The translations under genes were made by a program, and so were the position numbers. 10,603 bases of DNA from Thermoleophilaceae bacterium (GTDB lineage Bacteria > Actinomycetota > Thermoleophilia > Solirubrobacterales > Thermoleophilaceae): assembly GCA_013812485.1 (NCBI GenBank), contig JACCTJ010000261.1:1-10603 (forward strand). The letters are read 5' to 3'. A model generated the notes under the pieces. That model saw only the letters and a program-made list of their open reading frames with translations, was not told the origin of the DNA and made no database searches. Shown here one piece after another: positions 1 through 10,603 of the stretch; positions within the stretch are counted from its first letter, which is position 1; each line of letters begins with the position of its first letter.

Positions 1-88
1 GGCCCAGCTGCTGGCGTTCATCGAGCGCTACAACCCCACCGCGAAGCCGTTCGCCTGGACCTACGCGGGCAAGCCGCTGGTCAAGTGA
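1..88 (+). pseudogene. IS630-family transposase, C-terminal end (cut by window edge)
   Basis: The first 28 codons (frame starting at base 2, stop TGA at 86-88) read to an end with FIERYNPTAKPFAWTYAGKP. This matches the conserved C-terminal tail of IS630/Tc1-like DDE transposases (F-I-x-x-Y-N-x-T-A-K-P-F-x-W-T-Y). The rest of the gene lies upstream, outside the window, so I cannot tell whether the transposase is whole. The element's right end should lie within the next few tens of bases, but without the left end no inverted repeat can be assigned. Confidence 0.65.
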
Positions 89-296
89 ACCGGAATAGGC
101 GGACAAGGTACTAGTGGCTCGGACGACAGGCGCGGTTCCGTTGATATCGGGGCGAGCGTCGGGTTGGGAGCAAGTGCGGCGCCTTCGTGGGCCGGGGCGG
201 GGGGGTTTGCTCCCCACCGGAACTTCGGTCGCTGTTGAAAGGAGTCACGAGGACGGCCTCGACTCGCGCATTCGATCACGCGCGGACTGCTCATCC

Positions 297-1526
297 ATGA
301 GCACCACGGACCCTAGCCCGACCCGCGCCCGCGAGGGCCGGCGTCTGGTCGTGACCAACACACCCGGCATCTACCGCCGCAAGCGCGCGGACGGCTCGCT
401 CGGGGGCTACGTCGTGATCTACCGCGCCGCGGGCCGGCAGCGCAAGGAGTCGGCGCGTACGCTTGCGGAGGCACGGGCGATCCGTGCCTCCCGTCACGCC
501 GACCGCGACCGCGGCGAGTTCCACGCTCCCTCGCGCGTGACGCTGCGCGAGTTCCTCGCAGAGTGGATCGACCGCTACCAAGGCACAGGTCGGCGTGGCT
601 TTCGCGAGGGGACACGTGCCGAGTACCGGCGACTGCTCGACCAATACGCCCACCGCTACTTCGGCGAGCGGTTGCGGCTGGTAGACGTGACGCCGCACCA
701 CATGGCCCAGTACGTCGCCTGGCTCGCCGACGCCGGCAGGCAGGGCCGGCGGCTCGCCGATGCCACGGTTGCTAACGCGGTCATTCCCGTGCGTGCCGCG
801 CTCGGGACAGCCAAGGCCGAAGGGCTGCTCAGGCACAATCCGGCGGACGGGCTGCGCCTCCCCGTCCGCCAAGAGGTCCGCGACGACGACGCCGAGGACG
901 TCAAGGCCCTCTCGCGCGAGCAGCTCGCCACCGCGCTCGGGCTCGCCCCCGTGCGTCACCGTACGCTGATCGAGCTGCTCGCCGCCACCGGCCTCCGAGT
1001 GTCCGAAGCGCTCGCGCTCCAGCGCCGCCACCTGGCGCTCGACGGGGCACGCCCGCACGTACGCATCCGGCGCGCATTCGTTAAGGGCCGGGTCGAGCCG
1101 CCGAAGTCCCGCCACGGCCGGCGCGACGTGCCGCTCTCACGCGAGCTCGTCAACCGGCTGCGTGCTGACCTAGCCGACCTCCCGGACGTGCCCGAGGCGC
1201 TCATCTTCGTGAACCGCAACGGCACACCTATTGACGCCGACAACCTGCGCCGCCGAGTAGTAAAGCCGCTCATGGAGGAAGCTGGCGCGCCGTGGGCAGC
1301 GTTCCACACCCTCAGGCACACCTACGCAAGCCTGCAGCTCGCGCGCGGCGTGAACGTCGTCCAGGTCTCCCGGGCGCTCGGGCACCACTCCGCCGCGTTC
1401 ACGCTCGACACCTACGCCCACTTGCTCGAAGGCGAGGAAGCGCCGGCACTCGACCTCGCTGGCGCGCTCGAAGGGACGGCATCGGCGCACCGCGTGCCGC
1501 CGAAACTGACCGCACCTTCCGCCTAG
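297..1526 (+). CDS. tyrosine recombinase/phage-type integrase
   Basis: Complete site-specific recombinase of 409 aa if started at ATG 297. An in-frame GTG at 114 would give 470 aa, but the added 61 residues are Arg/Gly-rich and unlike the family. Neither start has a clear ribosome binding site. Residues about 24-75 (GIYRRKRADGSLGGYVVIYR) form an arm-type DNA-binding domain, about 80-185 the SAM-like core-binding domain, and about 205-380 the catalytic domain. Catalytic residues are visible: R234 (ATGLRVSEAL), K270 (EPPKSRHGRR), H337 and R340 (FHTLRHTYAS), H363 (LGHHS) and nucleophile Y373 (LDTYAHL). The protein should cut and rejoin DNA through a 3'-phosphotyrosine. No tRNA or att core is visible nearby, so this is not an obvious tRNA-integrated element. 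It lies about 0.7 kb from the 34-bp inverted repeat described below and is a candidate for acting on it, which is inference. Length and motifs are normal, so it is probably active. Confidence 0.95.
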   Translation: MSTTDPSPTRAREGRRLVVTNTPGIYRRKRADGSLGGYVVIYRAAGRQRKESARTLAEARAIRASRHADRDRGEFHAPSRVTLREFLAEWIDRYQGTGRRGFREGTRAEYRRLLDQYAHRYFGERLRLVDVTPHHMAQYVAWLADAGRQGRRLADATVANAVIPVRAALGTAKAEGLLRHNPADGLRLPVRQEVRDDDAEDVKALSREQLATALGLAPVRHRTLIELLAATGLRVSEALALQRRHLALDGARPHVRIRRAFVKGRVEPPKSRHGRRDVPLSRELVNRLRADLADLPDVPEALIFVNRNGTPIDADNLRRRVVKPLMEEAGAPWAAFHTLRHTYASLQLARGVNVVQVSRALGHHSAAFTLDTYAHLLEGEEAPALDLAGALEGTASAHRVPPKLTAPSA

Positions 1527-1602
1527 CACGGGTCCCGCACCTCTCGGCGTAGAGAGTCGACCGCCTTCACGCCTCTCCGGAGGTCTTCGCCGTGCCGACG
1601 TC

Positions 1603-1809
1603 TTGAGTTCCAGCGCGACTTCGGGGGCGATGGCGCCTGACCCGACCGGCAGCTCAAGACTTCCTTCGTGTTCAACGAAGCTGGTGAAGGTCCTCCACGC
1701 TGCTCTTACCGCCCCCCTGTGGGTGCCGGGCGCCGTCGGCCTGTACACCGTGTCGCGCGGCGCGCACCTGGCGGTCAAGGTGAAGGCGAAGCTAAGGCCT
1801 CTGATTTAA
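1603..1809 (+). CDS. doubtful small ORF, 68 aa, hydrophobic C-terminal half
   Basis: Small ORF starting at TTG 1603 and ending at TAA 1807-1809. Its first 25 residues are Ser/Pro-rich and low complexity. From about residue 26 it becomes amphipathic to hydrophobic (LVKVLHAALTAPLWVPGAVG) and ends in a basic tail (KVKAKLRPLI). This could be a small membrane-associated peptide or chance. There is no convincing ribosome binding site, and the start overlaps the 8-bp inverted repeat GTCTTGAG. I recognise no family and include it only because the C-terminal half looks less random than neighbouring frames. Confidence 0.2.
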   Translation: MSSSATSGAMAPDPTGSSRLPSCSTKLVKVLHAALTAPLWVPGAVGLYTVSRGAHLAVKVKAKLRPLI

Positions 1810-1862
1810 CGGTCAGGGCAGAGGGCGAGGTCCAAGCGGGCTGCCGGGCGCCAGGGGCGAGT

Positions 1863-2093
1863 TCAGGCGGCGTGCCGCGTGCTGGGCGGGGCGCTCGAGG
1901 TTTCGGACCTGCGAATGGCGCCGGACGCGGTTTCTGCCGGGACGTTGGGGTCAGCATCAAGAGCCGCGGCGCGATCCGGCCTCGAGCGGCTGGGTCCGTA
2001 TGGGGAACCGGCGGTAAGGACGCGACCGGCCAACAGAGCGAGCACCTGGGCTCGTTCAAGGTCTCGACCGATGTAGCGGGCGATCCAGCCCAT
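1863..2093 (-). CDS. doubtful small ORF, 76 aa, with a good ribosome binding site
   Basis: Minus-strand ORF from ATG 2091-2093. A Shine-Dalgarno-like GAGGTAGG lies just upstream, which sets it apart from random frames. The N-terminal third (MGWIARYIGRDLERAQVLAL) is plausible amphipathic helix. The last 45 residues are Ser/Pro/Arg-rich and look like untranslated or decayed sequence, so it may be a gene 5' end followed by read-through. It lies 57 bp downstream of the stop of the hydrophobic minus-strand frame at 2151-2315, so the two could be co-transcribed if the segment upstream were inverted. No family recognised. Confidence 0.25.
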   Translation of the reverse strand: MGWIARYIGRDLERAQVLALLAGRVLTAGSPYGPSRSRPDRAAALDADPNVPAETASGAIRRSETSSAPPSTRHAA

Positions 2094-2150
2094 CCTACCT
2101 CAAAGAACGGTGTGACCAGCTCCTATCTTGCGGTCTCGATCGGCGTTGAG

Positions 2151-2315
2151 CTAGTAGGCAAGAGGGATTGCCGCCGGAATCCACAGTCCGAGCACGGCGT
2201 ACCTCGCGACCCAGATCAGCGCGAGCAGCGTGATCGTCGAGAGCATGAGCACCGCCTTGCGCAGTAGCAACCCGGCGGCTGCAAGTACCTCGATGTCGCG
2301 CCTCCGACCTATCGT
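2151..2315 (-). pseudogene. orphan hydrophobic C-terminal frame (alternative 3' end of the inverted-repeat switch)
   Basis: Minus-strand open frame running from just after an in-frame stop (plus 2316-2318) to TAG at plus 2151-2153. It reads DIEVLAAAGLL from the 34-bp repeat, then a basic pair LRK, then a strongly hydrophobic run (AVLMLSTITLLALIWV, then ARYAVLGLWIPAAIPLAY). That looks like one long or two short membrane segments. In the present orientation it has no good start: only TTG 2268-2270, GTG 2250-2252 or ATG 2244-2246 inside it. It therefore looks like a 3' end waiting for a 5' end. Inverting 2300-2520 would supply an in-frame N-terminus of 40 residues plus the shared repeat, giving a predicted 89-aa product. 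It could instead be the tail of an unrelated small membrane protein whose start was lost. Confidence 0.45.
2266..2299 (+). repeat. left arm of an exact 34-bp inverted repeat
   Basis: Bases 2266-2299 (from AGCAACCCGGCGGCTGCAAG to CGATGTCGC) are the exact reverse complement of 2521-2554. Identity ends abruptly on both sides. On the minus strand this arm encodes DIEVLAAAGLL in the same codon phase that the right arm uses on the plus strand. No strong internal dyad is visible in the arm, so a recombinase core site cannot be assigned by eye. Confidence 0.97.
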
Positions 2316-2324
2316 CTACGCGCT

Positions 2325-2360
2325 GGTTTCGCCAAGCGGTTTGGCGGGTTTCGCCAAACC
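2325..2360. promoter_or_regulatory. triple GGTTTCGCCAA motif with two mutually exclusive hairpins
   Basis: GGTTTCGCCAA occurs twice in direct orientation (2325-2335 and 2347-2357), with an inverted copy between them (GGTTTGGCG, 2338-2346). The middle copy can form a perfect 9-bp stem with CGCCAAACC (2352-2360; 5-nt loop GGTTT), or a 6-bp stem with CGCCAA (2330-2335; 5-nt loop). The cluster is 40 bp upstream of GTG 2400, inside the segment bounded by the 34-bp repeat. As DNA it could be an operator; as RNA, a switch between two hairpins. TTGGCG at 2341-2346 and TAGAGC at 2365-2370, 18 bp apart, form only a weak promoter match. Confidence 0.6.
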
Positions 2361-2399
2361 CTCCTAGAGCCAGAGCAAGAACAGCTACTCGGGACGCTG

Positions 2400-3125
2400 G
2401 TGGAGGCGTCCCGCACCGTGGCGGACCGCAACAAGCGCGAGTTCTTCCTGATGCTGTTGGAGCAGGGCGCGCTCGTCGCGGGTGGCGGCCTCCCTCACGA
2501 CGGGCCGATGGTCGCCGACGGCGACATCGAGGTACTTGCAGCCGCCGGGTTGCTTCGGATCATCGAGGACGGCCAAGGTTCGACTCGGTTTCGAGTCACG
2601 CCGGAGGGCGAGAGGTTCTACGCGGCGATGAAAACCCGGGCGGGCGAGCCGGTCCGGGAGGTCGAAGACGACGTGCGCGGCTACCTCGACTCGGAGCCGT
2701 TCCGCAGCCGGTACGGCGCGGCCTACCAGAGCTTCGCGGAGGCCGAGAGGATGCTGTGGGGACGCGACTCGCAGAAGCAGCTCACGGCCGTCGGGCACCA
2801 CGCGCGAGAGGCGCTCCAAGCGTTCGCCACCGGCTTGGTCGAGCGCCATCAGCCGCCCGCCGTCAACTCGAACCCCACGCACACGCTCGACCGCCTTTCG
2901 GCTGTGGTTCAGATGCACCGGCCGACACTCGGCGACCGACGCACCGACTTCCTCGACGCGCTGTTCGGCTACTGGCGCGAGGTCGTCAACATCGCGCAGC
3001 GTCAGGAGCACGGCGGCCAGAAGGAGGGCGAGTCGCTCGTGTGGGAGGACGCGCGGCGCGTCGTCCTCCACACAGCCGTCGTCATAGTCGAGGTGGCGCG
3101 CACGCTTGACCCGCTCGCACCCTGA
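2400..3125 (+). CDS. winged-helix-type protein of unknown function
   Basis: Protein of 241 aa from GTG 2400 with a weak GGGA five bases upstream. The start is uncertain: the frame stays open upstream to 2268 with protein-like sequence (LLEPEQEQLLGTLVEASRTV) but no ATG, GTG or TTG, so the original N-terminus may have been lost. Residues about 1-76 resemble a winged helix: helices, then a recognition-helix-like GDIEVLAAAGLLRII (41-55), then a wing (GQGSTRFRVTPEGERFYAAM). The remainder is helical and acidic, with the conspicuous stretch QRQEHGGQKEGESLVWEDAR and a moderately hydrophobic helix near the C-terminus (VVLHTAVVIVEVARTL). There is no signal peptide, so it is likely cytoplasmic. The fold suggests a DNA-binding or regulatory role, but I cannot name the function. 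The stop lies 8 bp before the IS1182 left repeat, which probably separated the gene from its own terminator without breaking it. Confidence 0.7.
   Translation: MEASRTVADRNKREFFLMLLEQGALVAGGGLPHDGPMVADGDIEVLAAAGLLRIIEDGQGSTRFRVTPEGERFYAAMKTRAGEPVREVEDDVRGYLDSEPFRSRYGAAYQSFAEAERMLWGRDSQKQLTAVGHHAREALQAFATGLVERHQPPAVNSNPTHTLDRLSAVVQMHRPTLGDRRTDFLDALFGYWREVVNIAQRQEHGGQKEGESLVWEDARRVVLHTAVVIVEVARTLDPLAP
2521..2554 (-). repeat. right arm of the exact 34-bp inverted repeat
   Basis: Reverse complement of 2266-2299 with no mismatch over 34 bases. It lies inside the plus-strand winged-helix-type gene and encodes residues 41-52 (GDIEVLAAAGLL), the presumed recognition helix. The two arms enclose 221 bp (2300-2520) holding the putative promoter, the start codon and the first 40 codons. 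Confidence 0.97.
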
Positions 3126-3133
3126 GCGACGGG

Positions 3134-4849
3134 CTAGGAGCGCGGGTCGCTAACGCGACCGGCGGGGAGCTGAACTGCGAGAGGCAGCGCCGGGGAGCTC
3201 GATCATCGCTCGGTGGTCGCATCCGGGCGCTGGCGGCGGTTCCTGGGTGGTGGGGTGGGGGATCTGCGCCCCGCCCTCGTTCAGGTCCCCGCCACCAGGC
3301 TCAGGCCGCCCGCTCGATGGAGCTTCAGCAGGTTGTGCACTGCGCAGTTGAAGCGCCACTGGCAGCGCGCCGCTCGCTCGCCGCGCAGGAGGAGTTGTCG
3401 AGCTGCCTGGACGGTCTGCATCTGACCGAAGACGGGCTCGACGATCGTCTTGCGGCGGGCGTAGGCGGTGCGGCCCCGCTCGGTCTTCAGCTTGCGCGCC
3501 ATGCGCTGCTTCGGGGTCGCGCCCTTTTGGAGCGGCCCCGGCCCCGGCGGCGCCTGGGGCTCTGAGTGCTTGAAGCGGCCGGTGGCGATGTGGGGGTCGA
3601 GGCCGTGCTCTGAGGTGATCTGGACGTTGTCCTCGGAGAAGTAGCCGGCGTCAGCGAGCAGCACCGCCTCATCGGGCAGCTCGTCGCCGACCAGCTCGAG
3701 GTTCTCTGAGAGCTGGTCGAGCGCCGGTCGGAGCTGGCGTTGGTCGGGAGCCTCAGCGGAGAGCTCGGCCGCGACGATCACCTGGGTGCTCGAGTCGACG
3801 ACCGCCTGGCCGTTAAAGCACTGGTGGTAGGCGCCATCGGAGGTCTTCATGATCTTCGAGTCTGGGTCTGTGAAGTTGCGCTGCGCCTTGGGCTTGGGCT
3901 TAAACGGATCGCGCCCATCGGGCGGGCGGCGGGGCTTCTTGCCCTGTGCCTCGAGCTCTGAGCGCCGCGCGCGCTCGGCCTCGGTCGCCTCGGCCTCGAG
4001 AGCCTCCTTGGCCTCCCGGATCGCCTCGAGGCGGCCCTCGCGGCGCTGAAGCTCGGCGGGCAGCTCGTCGCCGCGGCGATCGCACCCGAAGCGCTCGTCC
4101 TCCGCTCGGTCGATTGCCTCGGCGTCGGCCAGCAGCGCTCCCACGCGCTCGCGCAGGGCGTCGATCTCTGACCGAAGCTGCGCCTCGGCCCTGACCATCC
4201 GCGCGTAGCTCATCGCCTTGTGGCGCGAGGCGTTGGCGCGCAGCTTGGTGCCGTCGAGCGCCAGTGTCCCGAGTCCGACCAGGCGCGCCTTGGCGCACAG
4301 CCGCAGCGCCTGCACGAACAGCTCCGCCAGCGCCTCCAGGTGACGCGCCCGAAAGCGGGCGATCGAGCGGTAGTCGGGGTGCTGGTCGGCGCACAGCATC
4401 CGCACCGCCACGTCGCGGTGGGTCGCGGCCTCGAGCTTGCGCGAGGAGACCACGCCGCTCGCGTAGCCGTAGATCAAGAGCTTGAGCATCAAGCGCGGGT
4501 CGTAGGGCGGATAGCCGCGCTCGTCCTCGTAGTCGGCGTAGATCGGCCCCAGATCCAGTGCGGAGTCGACCAGGTCCGAGACGAAGTGCGCCAGGTCCCC
4601 CTCCGGCACCCACTCCTGCAACACCGGCGCCATCAGCAGCACCTGGTCGGGGGCATAGGGACGGAAGGTCTTGTGCTGCGCGGACGCCCGCTCGGGTGCC
4701 TGTGCGCGAACGTCGGCGTCCTCGGCCTCCGCCTCGAACAGCTGTCCCTCCTCCACCGCTGCCGACATGCGAACCTCCCCGTCGTGTGCAGGGAGATCTT
4801 CGACTCCGGACCGGACGGGTCAGGCGTGGTTACTGACCCAGGCTCCTAG
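3134..4849 (-). mobile_element. IS1182-family insertion sequence, apparently complete
   Basis: The element is about 1.7 kb and encloses one transposase gene. Ends were found by comparison: 3134-3154 (CTAGGAGC..GGGTC..TAAC) against the reverse complement of 4829-4849. They match at 17 of 21 positions, differing only in two 2-base pockets. Both ends begin with the palindrome CTAG, which may be part of the repeat or a 4-bp target duplication. The right terminus also contains GGGTCAG (4817-4823) and CTGACCC (4833-4839), the left terminus GGTCGC (3145-3150) and GCGACC (3155-3160). Each end can thus form a small hairpin, possibly used in transposase recognition. It inserted 8 bp past the stop of the winged-helix-type gene, in convergent orientation. 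Confidence 0.85.
3281..4768 (-). CDS. IS1182-family DDE transposase
   Basis: Transposase of 495 aa, full length for the family. It starts at ATG 4766-4768 with GGGGAGG about six bases upstream. The N-terminal DUF772-type region (about residues 75-145) contains PPYDPRLMLKLLIYGYASGV and the HPDYRSIARFR motif. The DDE catalytic residues are D172 (LALDGTKLRANAS), D373 (VLLADAGYFSEDN) and E444 (KTIVEPVFGQMQ). A charged, coiled-coil-like insertion (about 186-275) separates the first Asp from the rest of the RNase H-like fold, as is usual here. The C-terminus (WRFNCAVHNLLKLHR) is the typical family ending. Frame and motifs are intact, and terminal repeats are recognisable on both sides, so the element may still be able to move. 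Confidence 0.95.
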   Translation of the reverse strand: MSAAVEEGQLFEAEAEDADVRAQAPERASAQHKTFRPYAPDQVLLMAPVLQEWVPEGDLAHFVSDLVDSALDLGPIYADYEDERGYPPYDPRLMLKLLIYGYASGVVSSRKLEAATHRDVAVRMLCADQHPDYRSIARFRARHLEALAELFVQALRLCAKARLVGLGTLALDGTKLRANASRHKAMSYARMVRAEAQLRSEIDALRERVGALLADAEAIDRAEDERFGCDRRGDELPAELQRREGRLEAIREAKEALEAEATEAERARRSELEAQGKKPRRPPDGRDPFKPKPKAQRNFTDPDSKIMKTSDGAYHQCFNGQAVVDSSTQVIVAAELSAEAPDQRQLRPALDQLSENLELVGDELPDEAVLLADAGYFSEDNVQITSEHGLDPHIATGRFKHSEPQAPPGPGPLQKGATPKQRMARKLKTERGRTAYARRKTIVEPVFGQMQTVQAARQLLLRGERAARCQWRFNCAVHNLLKLHRAGGLSLVAGT

Positions 4850-4972: not shown

Positions 4973-5048
4973 ATGACGCAGGCTAAGCCTGAATCCACCG
5001 TATTGCCTGCTATCAATGAGCGGTTTCCGTCCGGTCGGGGACCCATAA

Positions 5049-5112
5049 TGACCTCCTGAGCAGGGCTTTTCAGCGGATGTATCGGCATCCGCGGCCCCAC
5101 GTCAGGAGGTCA
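5049..5112 (+). promoter_or_regulatory. IS1380 leader hairpin sequestering the transposase ribosome binding site
   Basis: TGACCTCCTGA (5049-5059) is the perfect 11-bp complement of TCAGGAGGTCA (5102-5112). The second arm contains the transposase Shine-Dalgarno AGGAGGT (5104-5110), 7 nt before ATG 5118. The 42-nt loop carries a second perfect hairpin, GCGGATG (5073-5079) with CATCCGC (5086-5092) and loop TATCGG. A transcript entering from outside would fold both stems and hide the ribosome binding site, while one starting inside the loop would not. IS10 and IS50 limit expression from outside transcription in this way; applying it here is inference. Confidence 0.7.
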
Positions 5113-5117
5113 CCCGG

Positions 5118-6436
5118 ATGATGAACGATGAAGCGGCGGTTGTCAGCGCCCCCGCGAGCCTCGATTCGGTGCAGGTGCGCTTCGACGATTCGCGCTCGGT
5201 CGCTGACGCCGGGTTGATCTTGGCGGGCACCTCGGCCGAGCGACTCGGGCTCGAGCGGCTGATCAACCGCTGGGTCGATCTGGGCCGCCGGCGGGGCGCC
5301 TTTCGCCCCGGGCGCAAGGTGATGACGCTCGTCAACGCGATCCTCGCCGGGGCGGACTCGATCGAGGACTGTGACCTGTTGCGCTCGGGCTCGACGGGCA
5401 AGGTCCTCGGCCACCGGGTGATGGCGCCCTCGACGCTCGGGACGTTCCTGCGCGCCTTCACCTTCGGTCACGTGCGCCAGCTCGACCGGGTGCTCGGCGA
5501 GGCGCTCGCCCGCGCTTGGAGGGCCGGTGCCGGCCCGGGCTCCGCTCGGCTGGTGATCGATGTCGACTCGTTCGTCGGCGAGGTCCACGGCCGGCTCAAG
5601 CAGGGCGCCGCCTACGGCTACACCAAGGTGCTCGGCTATCACCCGCTGCTGGCCTCGCGCGCCGAGACCGGCGAGGTGCTGCACGTGCGAAACCGCAAAG
5701 GGTCGGCCAACACCCAGCGCGGGCTCATCCGCTTCACCCAGGAGCTGATCGCGCGGGTCAGGCGGGCCGGGGCAGGCGCCGAGATCCTGCTGCGCGCCGA
5801 CTCCGGGTTTTGGAACGCGAAGCTGTTCGCCTGGCTGCGCTGCGAGGGGGTCGCCTACTCGATCGGCGTCAAGCTCCACAAGCACGTGCGCGAGGCGATC
5901 GAGGCGATCGGACAGGACGCCTGGGCGCCGCTCGCCGACTACCCCGATACGGGCGAGGCGCAGATCGCCGAGACGACGCTCGGATCAGAGCGGCTGATCG
6001 TGCGCCGGGTGCGCACCTTCGAGGCCCAGGGCGAGCTCTATCCCGACTGGCGCTACTTCGCCTTCGCGACCAACCGGGCCGAGGCGATCGAGCTCGTCGA
6101 GGCCGAGCACCGCGACCACGCCGTCGTCGAGATCCACATCTCAGACCTAAAGGACGGGGCGCTCGCCACTTCCCCTCGGGCCACTTCAGCGCCAACTCCG
6201 CCTGGTGCGTGATCGCCTGCCTCGCCCACAACCTCGCCCGCTGGTCGGCGATCATCGGCCTCCCAGACCAGCCCCGCCGGGCCGCACGCACCTTCCGCCG
6301 GCGCTACCTGCGCATGCCCGGCAGGCTGACACGCTCCGCCCGCCAGTGGACCCTCCACCTCCCAAGGCACTGGCCCTGGCAAGACGCATTCGCCGCCGCG
6401 CTCGCACGGATCAGAGCGATCCCCGCAGTTCCCTGA
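5118..6436 (+). pseudogene. IS1380-family transposase, frameshifted near its C-terminus
   Basis: Starts at ATG 5118 behind a strong AGGAGGT; ATG 5121 is also possible. The first frame runs to a stop at 6210-6212 (364 aa). It contains the N-terminal DNA-binding half, the catalytic Asp region LVIDVDSFVGEVHG (D148/D150) followed by KQGAAYGYTKVLGYHPLLA, the second Asp in EILLRADSGFWN (D228), and YFAFATNRAEA and HAVVEIHISDLKDG near the C-terminus. The family's conserved ending (HFPSGHFSANSAWCVIACL, then AHNLARW and the basic tail) is present, but in the -1 frame from 6167 to TGA 6434-6436. One missing base at about 6165-6167 explains the shift. No classic slippery heptamer is visible there, so an inactivating deletion or sequencing error is likelier than programmed frameshifting. 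Restored, the protein would be about 439 aa, normal for the family. Confidence 0.92.
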
Positions 6437-6645
6437 GCAGCGCGCCCTCGCCCACGTCGATTCGGTGCCTCGCCCCGCCCGCCCGGGTGCTTCAGCCTGC
6501 CCGCGAACGCCCCACGCCCGGCCCCGAAGCGACGATCCGACCCCGCTCAGGCGCCACTGCCGCCGAGCAAGACCCTCCGACCGCCCTCAAGCGTTGACGG
6601 GGCCGGTCAGGTGAGCATGAAGGGGCGATACGGTGGATTCAGGCT

Positions 6646-10008: not shown

Positions 10009-10380
10009 CTACTGGGCCGCCGCTCCACGGTCGAGCCCGAGGATCAGCGTCAGGGCGGATTCGATCTCCTCCATGACGACCGGCTCGACGCTTCCGAGCC
10101 GGCGCACGAGCCTGGAGGGGACAACGGCTCTGATCGCTCTGCAGATGGCTCGGCTGGGGCGAGCGATCCCGGCGCTCGGTTCAATCTTGACCCGGATGGC
10201 GGATCGTGCTTGCGAACTCGACAGCGGGACGACGACGATCAAGTCGGCTGGGGCGCCGGTGCTCAGCTCATCGACGGAGATGACGACCGCGGGCCGAGTC
10301 TTGCCCGGTTCGCCGGCGCGTGCCGCGCCCAGCGCGACGAGCCAGATCTCCCCGCGACGGGGAGCGTCAGCCGACGCCAT
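10009..10380 (-). CDS. mazF: MazF/PemK-type toxin endoribonuclease
   Basis: Toxin of 123 aa from ATG 10378-10380. Upstream frame-open sequence is Arg/Ser-rich and lies antisense to the antitoxin frame, so it is not used. Family motifs: [11 protein letters not shown] (strand 1), [13 protein letters not shown] (with catalytic-type Arg29), [11 protein letters not shown], then [20 protein letters not shown] and the C-terminal helix [15 protein letters not shown]. MazF proteins fold as SH3-like barrels and cut single-stranded mRNA at short motifs; the motif cannot be read from sequence. The start overlaps the antitoxin stop by 14 bp, so translation is coupled and one promoter upstream of the window end should serve both. 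The antitoxin usually represses that promoter. Length and motifs are complete, so it is likely functional, unlike the gene scraps next to it. Confidence 0.9.
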
Positions 10381-10603
10381 CCTCGAGGGTGGCCTCCCAC
10401 TCGCGCACCTCGGCTTGCACGTCGAGACTCTGCGCGTCGATGCGGTTAGCCTCGCGCTCCGACCGCCAGACCGCCTCGCGGCGGCGCTCGTCGGCGATGA
10501 CGGCAAGCAGCGCGGCCAGTGACATTCCGCGCTCGCGGGCCTGTTCAGCGAGGACGTCACGCGTTTCGCGCGTCACCCGGATGGTGGCCGTCTGGGACGC
10601 CAT
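10367..10603 (-). CDS. mazE: ribbon-helix-helix-type antitoxin partner of MazF
   Basis: Small protein of 78 aa whose ATG is the last codon of the window (10601-10603); an earlier start outside cannot be excluded. Residues about 5-12 (TATIRVTR) form a likely beta-strand, followed by two helices ([20 protein letters not shown], then [11 protein letters not shown]). This is the MetJ/Arc ribbon-helix-helix pattern that binds operator DNA as a dimer. The acidic C-terminal part ([18 protein letters not shown]) would wrap the toxin and block its active site. It overlaps the MazF start by 14 bp. Function is inferred from fold pattern and position; the sequence itself is less conserved than the toxin. 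Confidence 0.78.

Follow-up and report, generated by a model that had tools for sequence, protein, structure and literature searches.

The window analysed here, meaning the whole stretch of DNA at its full length, is the complete contig C295 (10,603 bases) from a bin of 1.81 Mb that comprises 369 contigs and is approximately 75% complete. An exact inverted repeat, with arms of 34 nt that are 100% complementary and separated by a spacer of 221 nt, occupies 2266–2299 and 2521–2554 in the left part of the contig, downstream of a tyrosine integrase gene (Table 1). The right arm is inside a plus-strand gene, and a hydrophobic frame can be read on the minus strand beyond the left arm. Two transposase genes and a toxin domain lie further along the contig. 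When read by eye, the IS1380-family transposase gene has an apparent frame shift near its 3′ end, and a small gene upstream of the PemK/MazF-like toxin domain, on the same strand, is a candidate antitoxin. A plasmid DNA search of 1–3300, phage searches, viral contig scans and a first genome-contig scan, as well as an Rfam scan of the window and a tRNA scan, returned nothing informative.

Table 1. Coordinates of features in the 10,603-base window
Feature	Position	Strand	Basis or comment
Tyrosine integrase (phage-integrase family), nearest recombinase	297–1526	+	A candidate only for a role in flipping
Class III adenylate/guanylate cyclase remnant, truncated, N-terminal membrane region	2151–2265	-	Homology; ends in TAG
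Left arm	2266–2299	-	Inverted duplicate of 34 bp from within the plus-strand gene; in-frame join to the cyclase remnant on the minus strand
Segment between arms	2300–2520	+	221 bp: 5′ part of the gene and upstream DNA; turned the other way round, relative to the cyclase remnant, in P0123
Repeated motif GGTTTCGCCAA and palindrome GGTTTGGCG-GGTTT-CGCCAAACC	2325–2360	+	Within the segment; motif match, palindrome by reading
Gene of uncharacterised family with helical C-terminal domain	2361–3125	+	Homologue alignment and structure prediction; conserved N-terminus from approximately 2361
Right arm	2521–2554	+	Native coding sequence of the plus-strand gene, as judged from P0004; encodes DIEVLAAAGLL
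IS1182-family transposase	3281–4768	-	
IS1380-family transposase	5118–6212		Within 4986–6645, between 22-nt inverted ends 4986–5007 and 6624–6645 (95% complementary)
PemK/MazF-like toxin domain	10009–10603		

The repeat had been reported in a preliminary description of this DNA made from the sequence, and it was confirmed here. Across 100 first-order Markov simulations of the window, the longest inverted match averaged 15.5 bp and never exceeded 22 bp, compared with the 34 bp observed, and a chance origin was ruled out. When the bin was searched with 2151–3125 no further copy of the arms was found, and the reading in which the repeat is one that occurs elsewhere was dropped. The internal dyad of the 34-bp arm is no better than that of shuffled sequences (272/300 shuffles equal it); such a dyad is a frequent, though not obligatory, feature of recombinase sites. 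The stable RNA fold predicted for 2262–2558 (z -8.9) arises because the inverted repeat itself gives it. Within the enclosed segment, the two copies of GGTTTCGCCAA are 22 bp apart (0/200 shuffles give two), and together with the palindrome they are a possible operator or promoter element, a function suggested by the arrangement of the motifs; a promoter and terminator scan of 2100–2560 gave nothing informative.

Homologues of the plus-strand product number 342 at E ≤ 0.001, with 120 of them among the matches listed. In relatives the family is patchy, present in 4/101 genomes in one search and 9/399 in another with the bin counted in, and its 26 loci in named genomes span many phyla. The gene family is widespread, and the right arm belongs to its ordinary coding sequence. 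Pfam gave no match to the window protein at E ≤ 1, the best Pfam match across 64 aligned family members has an E value of 0.0056, and a search of solved structures yielded a single, uninformative match (E 0.43). The product had been taken for a winged-helix protein. This was not established, as the predicted structure (mean pLDDT 92.7) runs H-E-E-H-E-E and continues into a long all-helical domain, and the winged-helix Pfam model matches only 2/64 family members (best E 0.055). The right arm corresponds to approximately residues 53–64 of the frame counted from 2364, which form the second helix and the following turn of the predicted structure. P0004, which is 84% identical overall, carries the right-arm residues at the equivalent place, and the right arm is thus native coding sequence. 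Exact inverted matches of 12 bp or more were sought at 32 other family loci, and at the gene none exceeded 14 bp; the arms were therefore rejected as a family-conserved repeat.

The GTG start at 2400 proposed for the 241-aa reading frame is doubtful. Residues matching LLEPEQEQLLGTL, which the window encodes from 2361, upstream of that GTG, are present in 17 of 18 aligned homologues. The start that gives 241 aa is probably too far downstream. Between 2268 and 2400 the window frame contains no ATG, GTG or TTG, so in the arrangement seen in the window the gene may be without its normal start. As the left arm stands ahead of the segment whichever way the segment lies, a flip would make no difference to this.

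P0004 of family A1 is window-like over its first 75 residues (71/75) and P0012-like over approximately the last 150 (147/150, then 7/7), and family A1 looks like a mosaic with a variable stretch at approximately residues 25–75. Pfam models were scanned against 49 of the 99 neighbouring ORFs listed from 18 family loci, with the neighbours taken from loci L041–L063. Three of the 49 include a type I restriction specificity domain and two an N6 methylase domain. Some family members are therefore neighbours of restriction-modification genes, and a link to defence is possible but weak.

Translation confirmed the hydrophobic frame and its stop on the minus strand, which reads DIEVLAAAGLL-LRKAVLMLSTITLLALIWVARYAVLGLWIPAAIPLAY-stop through and past the left arm. 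When a 48-residue query spanning the left arm and the hydrophobic frame was used to search 201 genomes, bin included, 15 relatives besides the bin were matched with E values from 4.2e-10 to 2.0e-6. These matches are to cyclases, and they begin at query residues 7–12, which is the edge of the arm, and stop at residue 48. Another 37/201 genomes returned matches solely at E 0.01 to 1, which were set aside as likely chance matches between hydrophobic stretches. Seven cyclase loci were read (L017–L020, L022, L024 and L027); L021, L023, L025 and L026, in which the match is on the minus strand, were left out together with L016 of the bin itself. In all seven, the match sits in a membrane region early in the gene, and the frame reads on with a Q where the window has TAG; P0124, a database protein described below, likewise has a glutamine there. 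Six of the seven run on into sequence recognisable by eye as cyclase, and L024 departs soon after the matched region. In L022, the sole locus tested for a catalytic domain, PF00211 was matched at 200 bits. The contig is 59% identical to the L022 protein over query residues 15–57, with one TAG within the match, and as the contig matches just these residues the cyclase catalytic domain is absent from the window. Within the bin, the window fragment alone matches L022 over that region; another contig gives one further weak match, which falls in the C-terminal part.

The start of the matches at the edge of the arm and the continuation of the relatives past the TAG show the second ending to be a remnant of another gene, and on this homology we identify the hydrophobic frame as a piece of the membrane region of a class III cyclase. 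As the frame is cyclase-derived, the idea that it evolved as another C-terminus for the plus-strand gene family was ruled out. The preliminary description had given membership of the frame in a separate gene as part of what would refute it, and that part was found, both in the cyclase membrane region and in P0124 and P0125, where the same remnant has another 5′ end.

In silico inversion of 2300–2520, reproduced in a script, generates the in-frame fusion that had been predicted, with an 89-residue product read from GTG 2400. The plus-strand frame that results from the same inversion has 206 open codons and contains no ATG, GTG or TTG before the arm. A stand-alone homologue of the fusion had been suggested as something to look for, and one was found. 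Searching 5.8 billion proteins with the hypothetical 89-aa fusion gave 26 candidates and two matches at E ≤ 1. P0123, a 126-aa protein on a 551-base contig, is 97% identical across the whole query. Its residues 3–87 are 100% identical to the translation of window 2301–2555, and residues 77–126 are 96% identical to 2297–2154 on the minus strand. P0123 thus links the segment to the hydrophobic frame by way of the arm, whereas in the window the segment points away from that frame. With P0123 as the one example of the opposite junction, public sequences appear to include the segment in both orientations relative to the hydrophobic frame.

P0123 opens with MR before PPTYRLRAG, where the left arm of the window would encode VA. 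It also has two additional codons (LSTSIITLL, with STSIITLL for STITLL in the window) that give a length fitting the cyclases and are also found in P0125. As a consequence of the extra codons and the different N-terminal pair, P0123 is not a copy of the allele in this contig. Two edits would convert the window arm into the start of P0123, and 1628 of 5000 random stretches come equally close, so that P0123 may be without the left arm. As the join of the arm to the remnant is found in P0123 as well, it is not peculiar to this contig. Inversion of the 221-bp segment would be the simplest account of the difference between the window and P0123, and we conclude from the two junctions that the segment has probably flipped in nature.

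Unfused versions of the remnant also exist. In P0124 (84 aa) and P0125 (112 aa) the remnant follows a different, cyclase-like 5′ part, PDWL...EVRLRKAVL, that replaces the arm. A 6-bp deletion is common to the window and P0124, and a frame end at the equal residue is common to the window and P0123; this crosswise sharing is unexplained by a single simple history. Beyond the cyclase remnant, P0125 ends in a tail that matches L067 1613–1720 in another genome, antisense to an EGFOA RNA (RF02955, 72 bits), which suggests that an RNA-bearing element was inserted into the remnant in P0125.

The nearest recombinase gene, the integrase, lies approximately 740 bp from the left arm. Its product scores 20.6 bits against the tyrosine DNA invertase model, for which the cutoff is 222, and relatives at E ≤ 1e-30 are present in 17/61 genomes, bin included; it is a common integrase of the general phage type, and a recombinase encoded elsewhere is possible. 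No integrase relative was detected at E ≤ 1e-3 in 33 family loci, in a search for which the family gene, used as a control, was found in 33/33. When the threshold was relaxed to E ≤ 10, a weak match (E 0.003, 39% over 44 residues), probably degraded, was returned at L011 1006–1137, approximately 360 bp upstream of the family gene, and a link between gene and integrase is possible. By eye, a possible degraded integrase is located upstream of the family gene in L006 and L011. The 849–1515 part of the integrase gene has an 88.6% DNA match in the same-genus genome L070, so the contig, at least in its left part, is consistent with its bin.

We put the probability at about one half that the segment became invertible as a by-product of a recent foldback rearrangement, and that it has flipped in at least one lineage. 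A local rearrangement would have placed a 34-bp inverted duplicate from the plus-strand gene against the broken remnant of a membrane cyclase, and the resulting exact 34-bp inverted repeat around 221 bp would have made the segment invertible. Flipping in at least one lineage would then have given rise to a structural polymorphism. One orientation would read into the gene's own helical C-terminus, and the other into the cyclase remnant, ending after approximately 38 mostly hydrophobic residues. The left arm is proposed to have originated as a short templated inverted duplication at a break. Such duplications occur at breaks in yeast and most are approximately 5–34 bp, according to PMC11724301; their transfer as a model from yeast to bacteria is our own step. 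The likeness is that a short nearby sequence is copied in inverted form at a breakpoint, with 34 bp at the top of the stated range, and the differences are that the host here is a bacterium and that the copy is 221 bp from its source. The order of events and the derivation of P0123 from the same locus are inferred, as is the route of the flip, for which we propose recombination through the repeat, or strand-switching there during replication, in place of a dedicated invertase. The membrane-ended product is most likely incidental. Counting against this reading are its dependence on one protein from a 551-base contig, the MR start of P0123 where the left arm would give VA, and the crosswise sharing of the 6-bp indel and the frame end, together with features that a selected switch would also have and the weak integrase match in L011.

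Phase variation had been proposed for this locus, as a switch that exchanges the C-terminus of the protein. The occurrence of the opposite junction in P0123 upholds one part of that proposal, and the finding that the second ending is gene debris weakens the other. A genuine switch, in which cells would alternate between the full-length protein and a short membrane-anchored form as a site-specific recombinase turned the 221-bp stretch of promoter and N-terminus, seems unlikely, even though both junctions are present in public sequence, the fusion is in frame, an integrase gene is close to the left arm and a weak integrase match is near the gene in L011. The length of the segment also resembles that of two fimbrial switches of 296 and 266 bp described in passages of PMC5903667, and the operator-like motif, repeated inside the segment, would likewise suit a selected switch, as would the preserved frame of the fusion. 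Against these, the partner on one outer side is what is left of a broken, unrelated gene, the right arm consists of plain coding sequence, the dyad of the arm is not beyond that of shuffles, and the integrase is of a general type that falls far below the invertase cutoff. The absence of comparable repeats at the gene in the 32 other loci, and of integrase relatives at E ≤ 1e-3 in the 33 family loci, also speaks against it. With the hydrophobic frame assigned to a cyclase, no such repeat at 32 other family loci and no recombinase tied to the arms, the claim of an evolved C-terminus switch was not sustained. A chance rearrangement beside a broken gene is more likely than a purpose-built switch; selected phase variation is possible, with a lower probability than that of a segment which recently became invertible by accident. 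A reading that combines the two, in which an uncultured high-GC bacterium has an active switch, recently formed by foldback duplication, whose mobile promoter and N-terminus cassette alternates between its own helical C-terminus and a membrane hairpin from a broken cyclase, is distinctly unlikely.

Two separate, fixed rearrangements could also account for the sequences. P0123 would then be a stable fusion produced by inversion or deletion in another strain, the window would have received a one-off inverted 34-bp insertion, and the repeat would have mediated no flipping. The methionine of P0123, which stands two residues before the segment in place of the residues encoded by the left arm, is consistent with this, as are the several joins in which the remnant occurs (P0124, P0125). 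However, the same arm-remnant join, GLL-LRKAV, would have to be shared across two opposite orientations of the segment, for which one inversion is simpler, and we regard this account as rather unlikely. An artefact of assembly or amplification, in which crossing of a 34-bp repeat at small word size or a chimeric molecule would have created either the window's repeat or P0123's junction, is very unlikely. A repeat of 34 bp exceeds some assembly word lengths, which counts towards an artefact, as do the fragmented bin, of which the window is one whole contig, and the short contig from which P0123 comes. Set against these, the arm-remnant join is present in two different alleles, the 241-aa protein is recorded in identical form on two contigs, which may not be independent, and an assembler would not be expected to create the left arm without a real or chimeric molecule.

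Jiang 2019 and Chanin 2024, both cited in PMC11868660, reportedly describe invertons with arms within or overlapping a gene. The window locus shares with invertons a short segment between inverted repeats, an arm in a coding region, a flip that alters the end of a protein and, through P0123, the opposite junction in another public sequence. It differs from them in that its recombinase is a candidate only and it is bounded on one outer side by part of a broken gene. Shufflons, Mycoplasma variable lipoproteins and hsdS have related alternative partners and dedicated recombinases. All resemble the window locus in joining a shared N-terminal or promoter part to alternative downstream parts, whereas here the partners are unrelated. 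The class III cyclases, represented by L022 and PF00211, are the source family of the hydrophobic frame, of which approximately 38 codons are left in the window. The arms, 34 bp of coding sequence, also differ from documented inversion sites, at which repeats are typically 10–20 nt in the passages of PMC5903667 that describe them.

If both orientations coexist, the locus would be an example of how an inversion that swaps the end of a gene starts. A short exact inverted duplication would make a segment flippable and an accidental neighbour would supply the second ending, which would bear on the origin of selected invertons. If they do not, a structural polymorphism beside a broken gene would still be represented, with the caution that an in-frame hydrophobic tail can be the debris of another gene.
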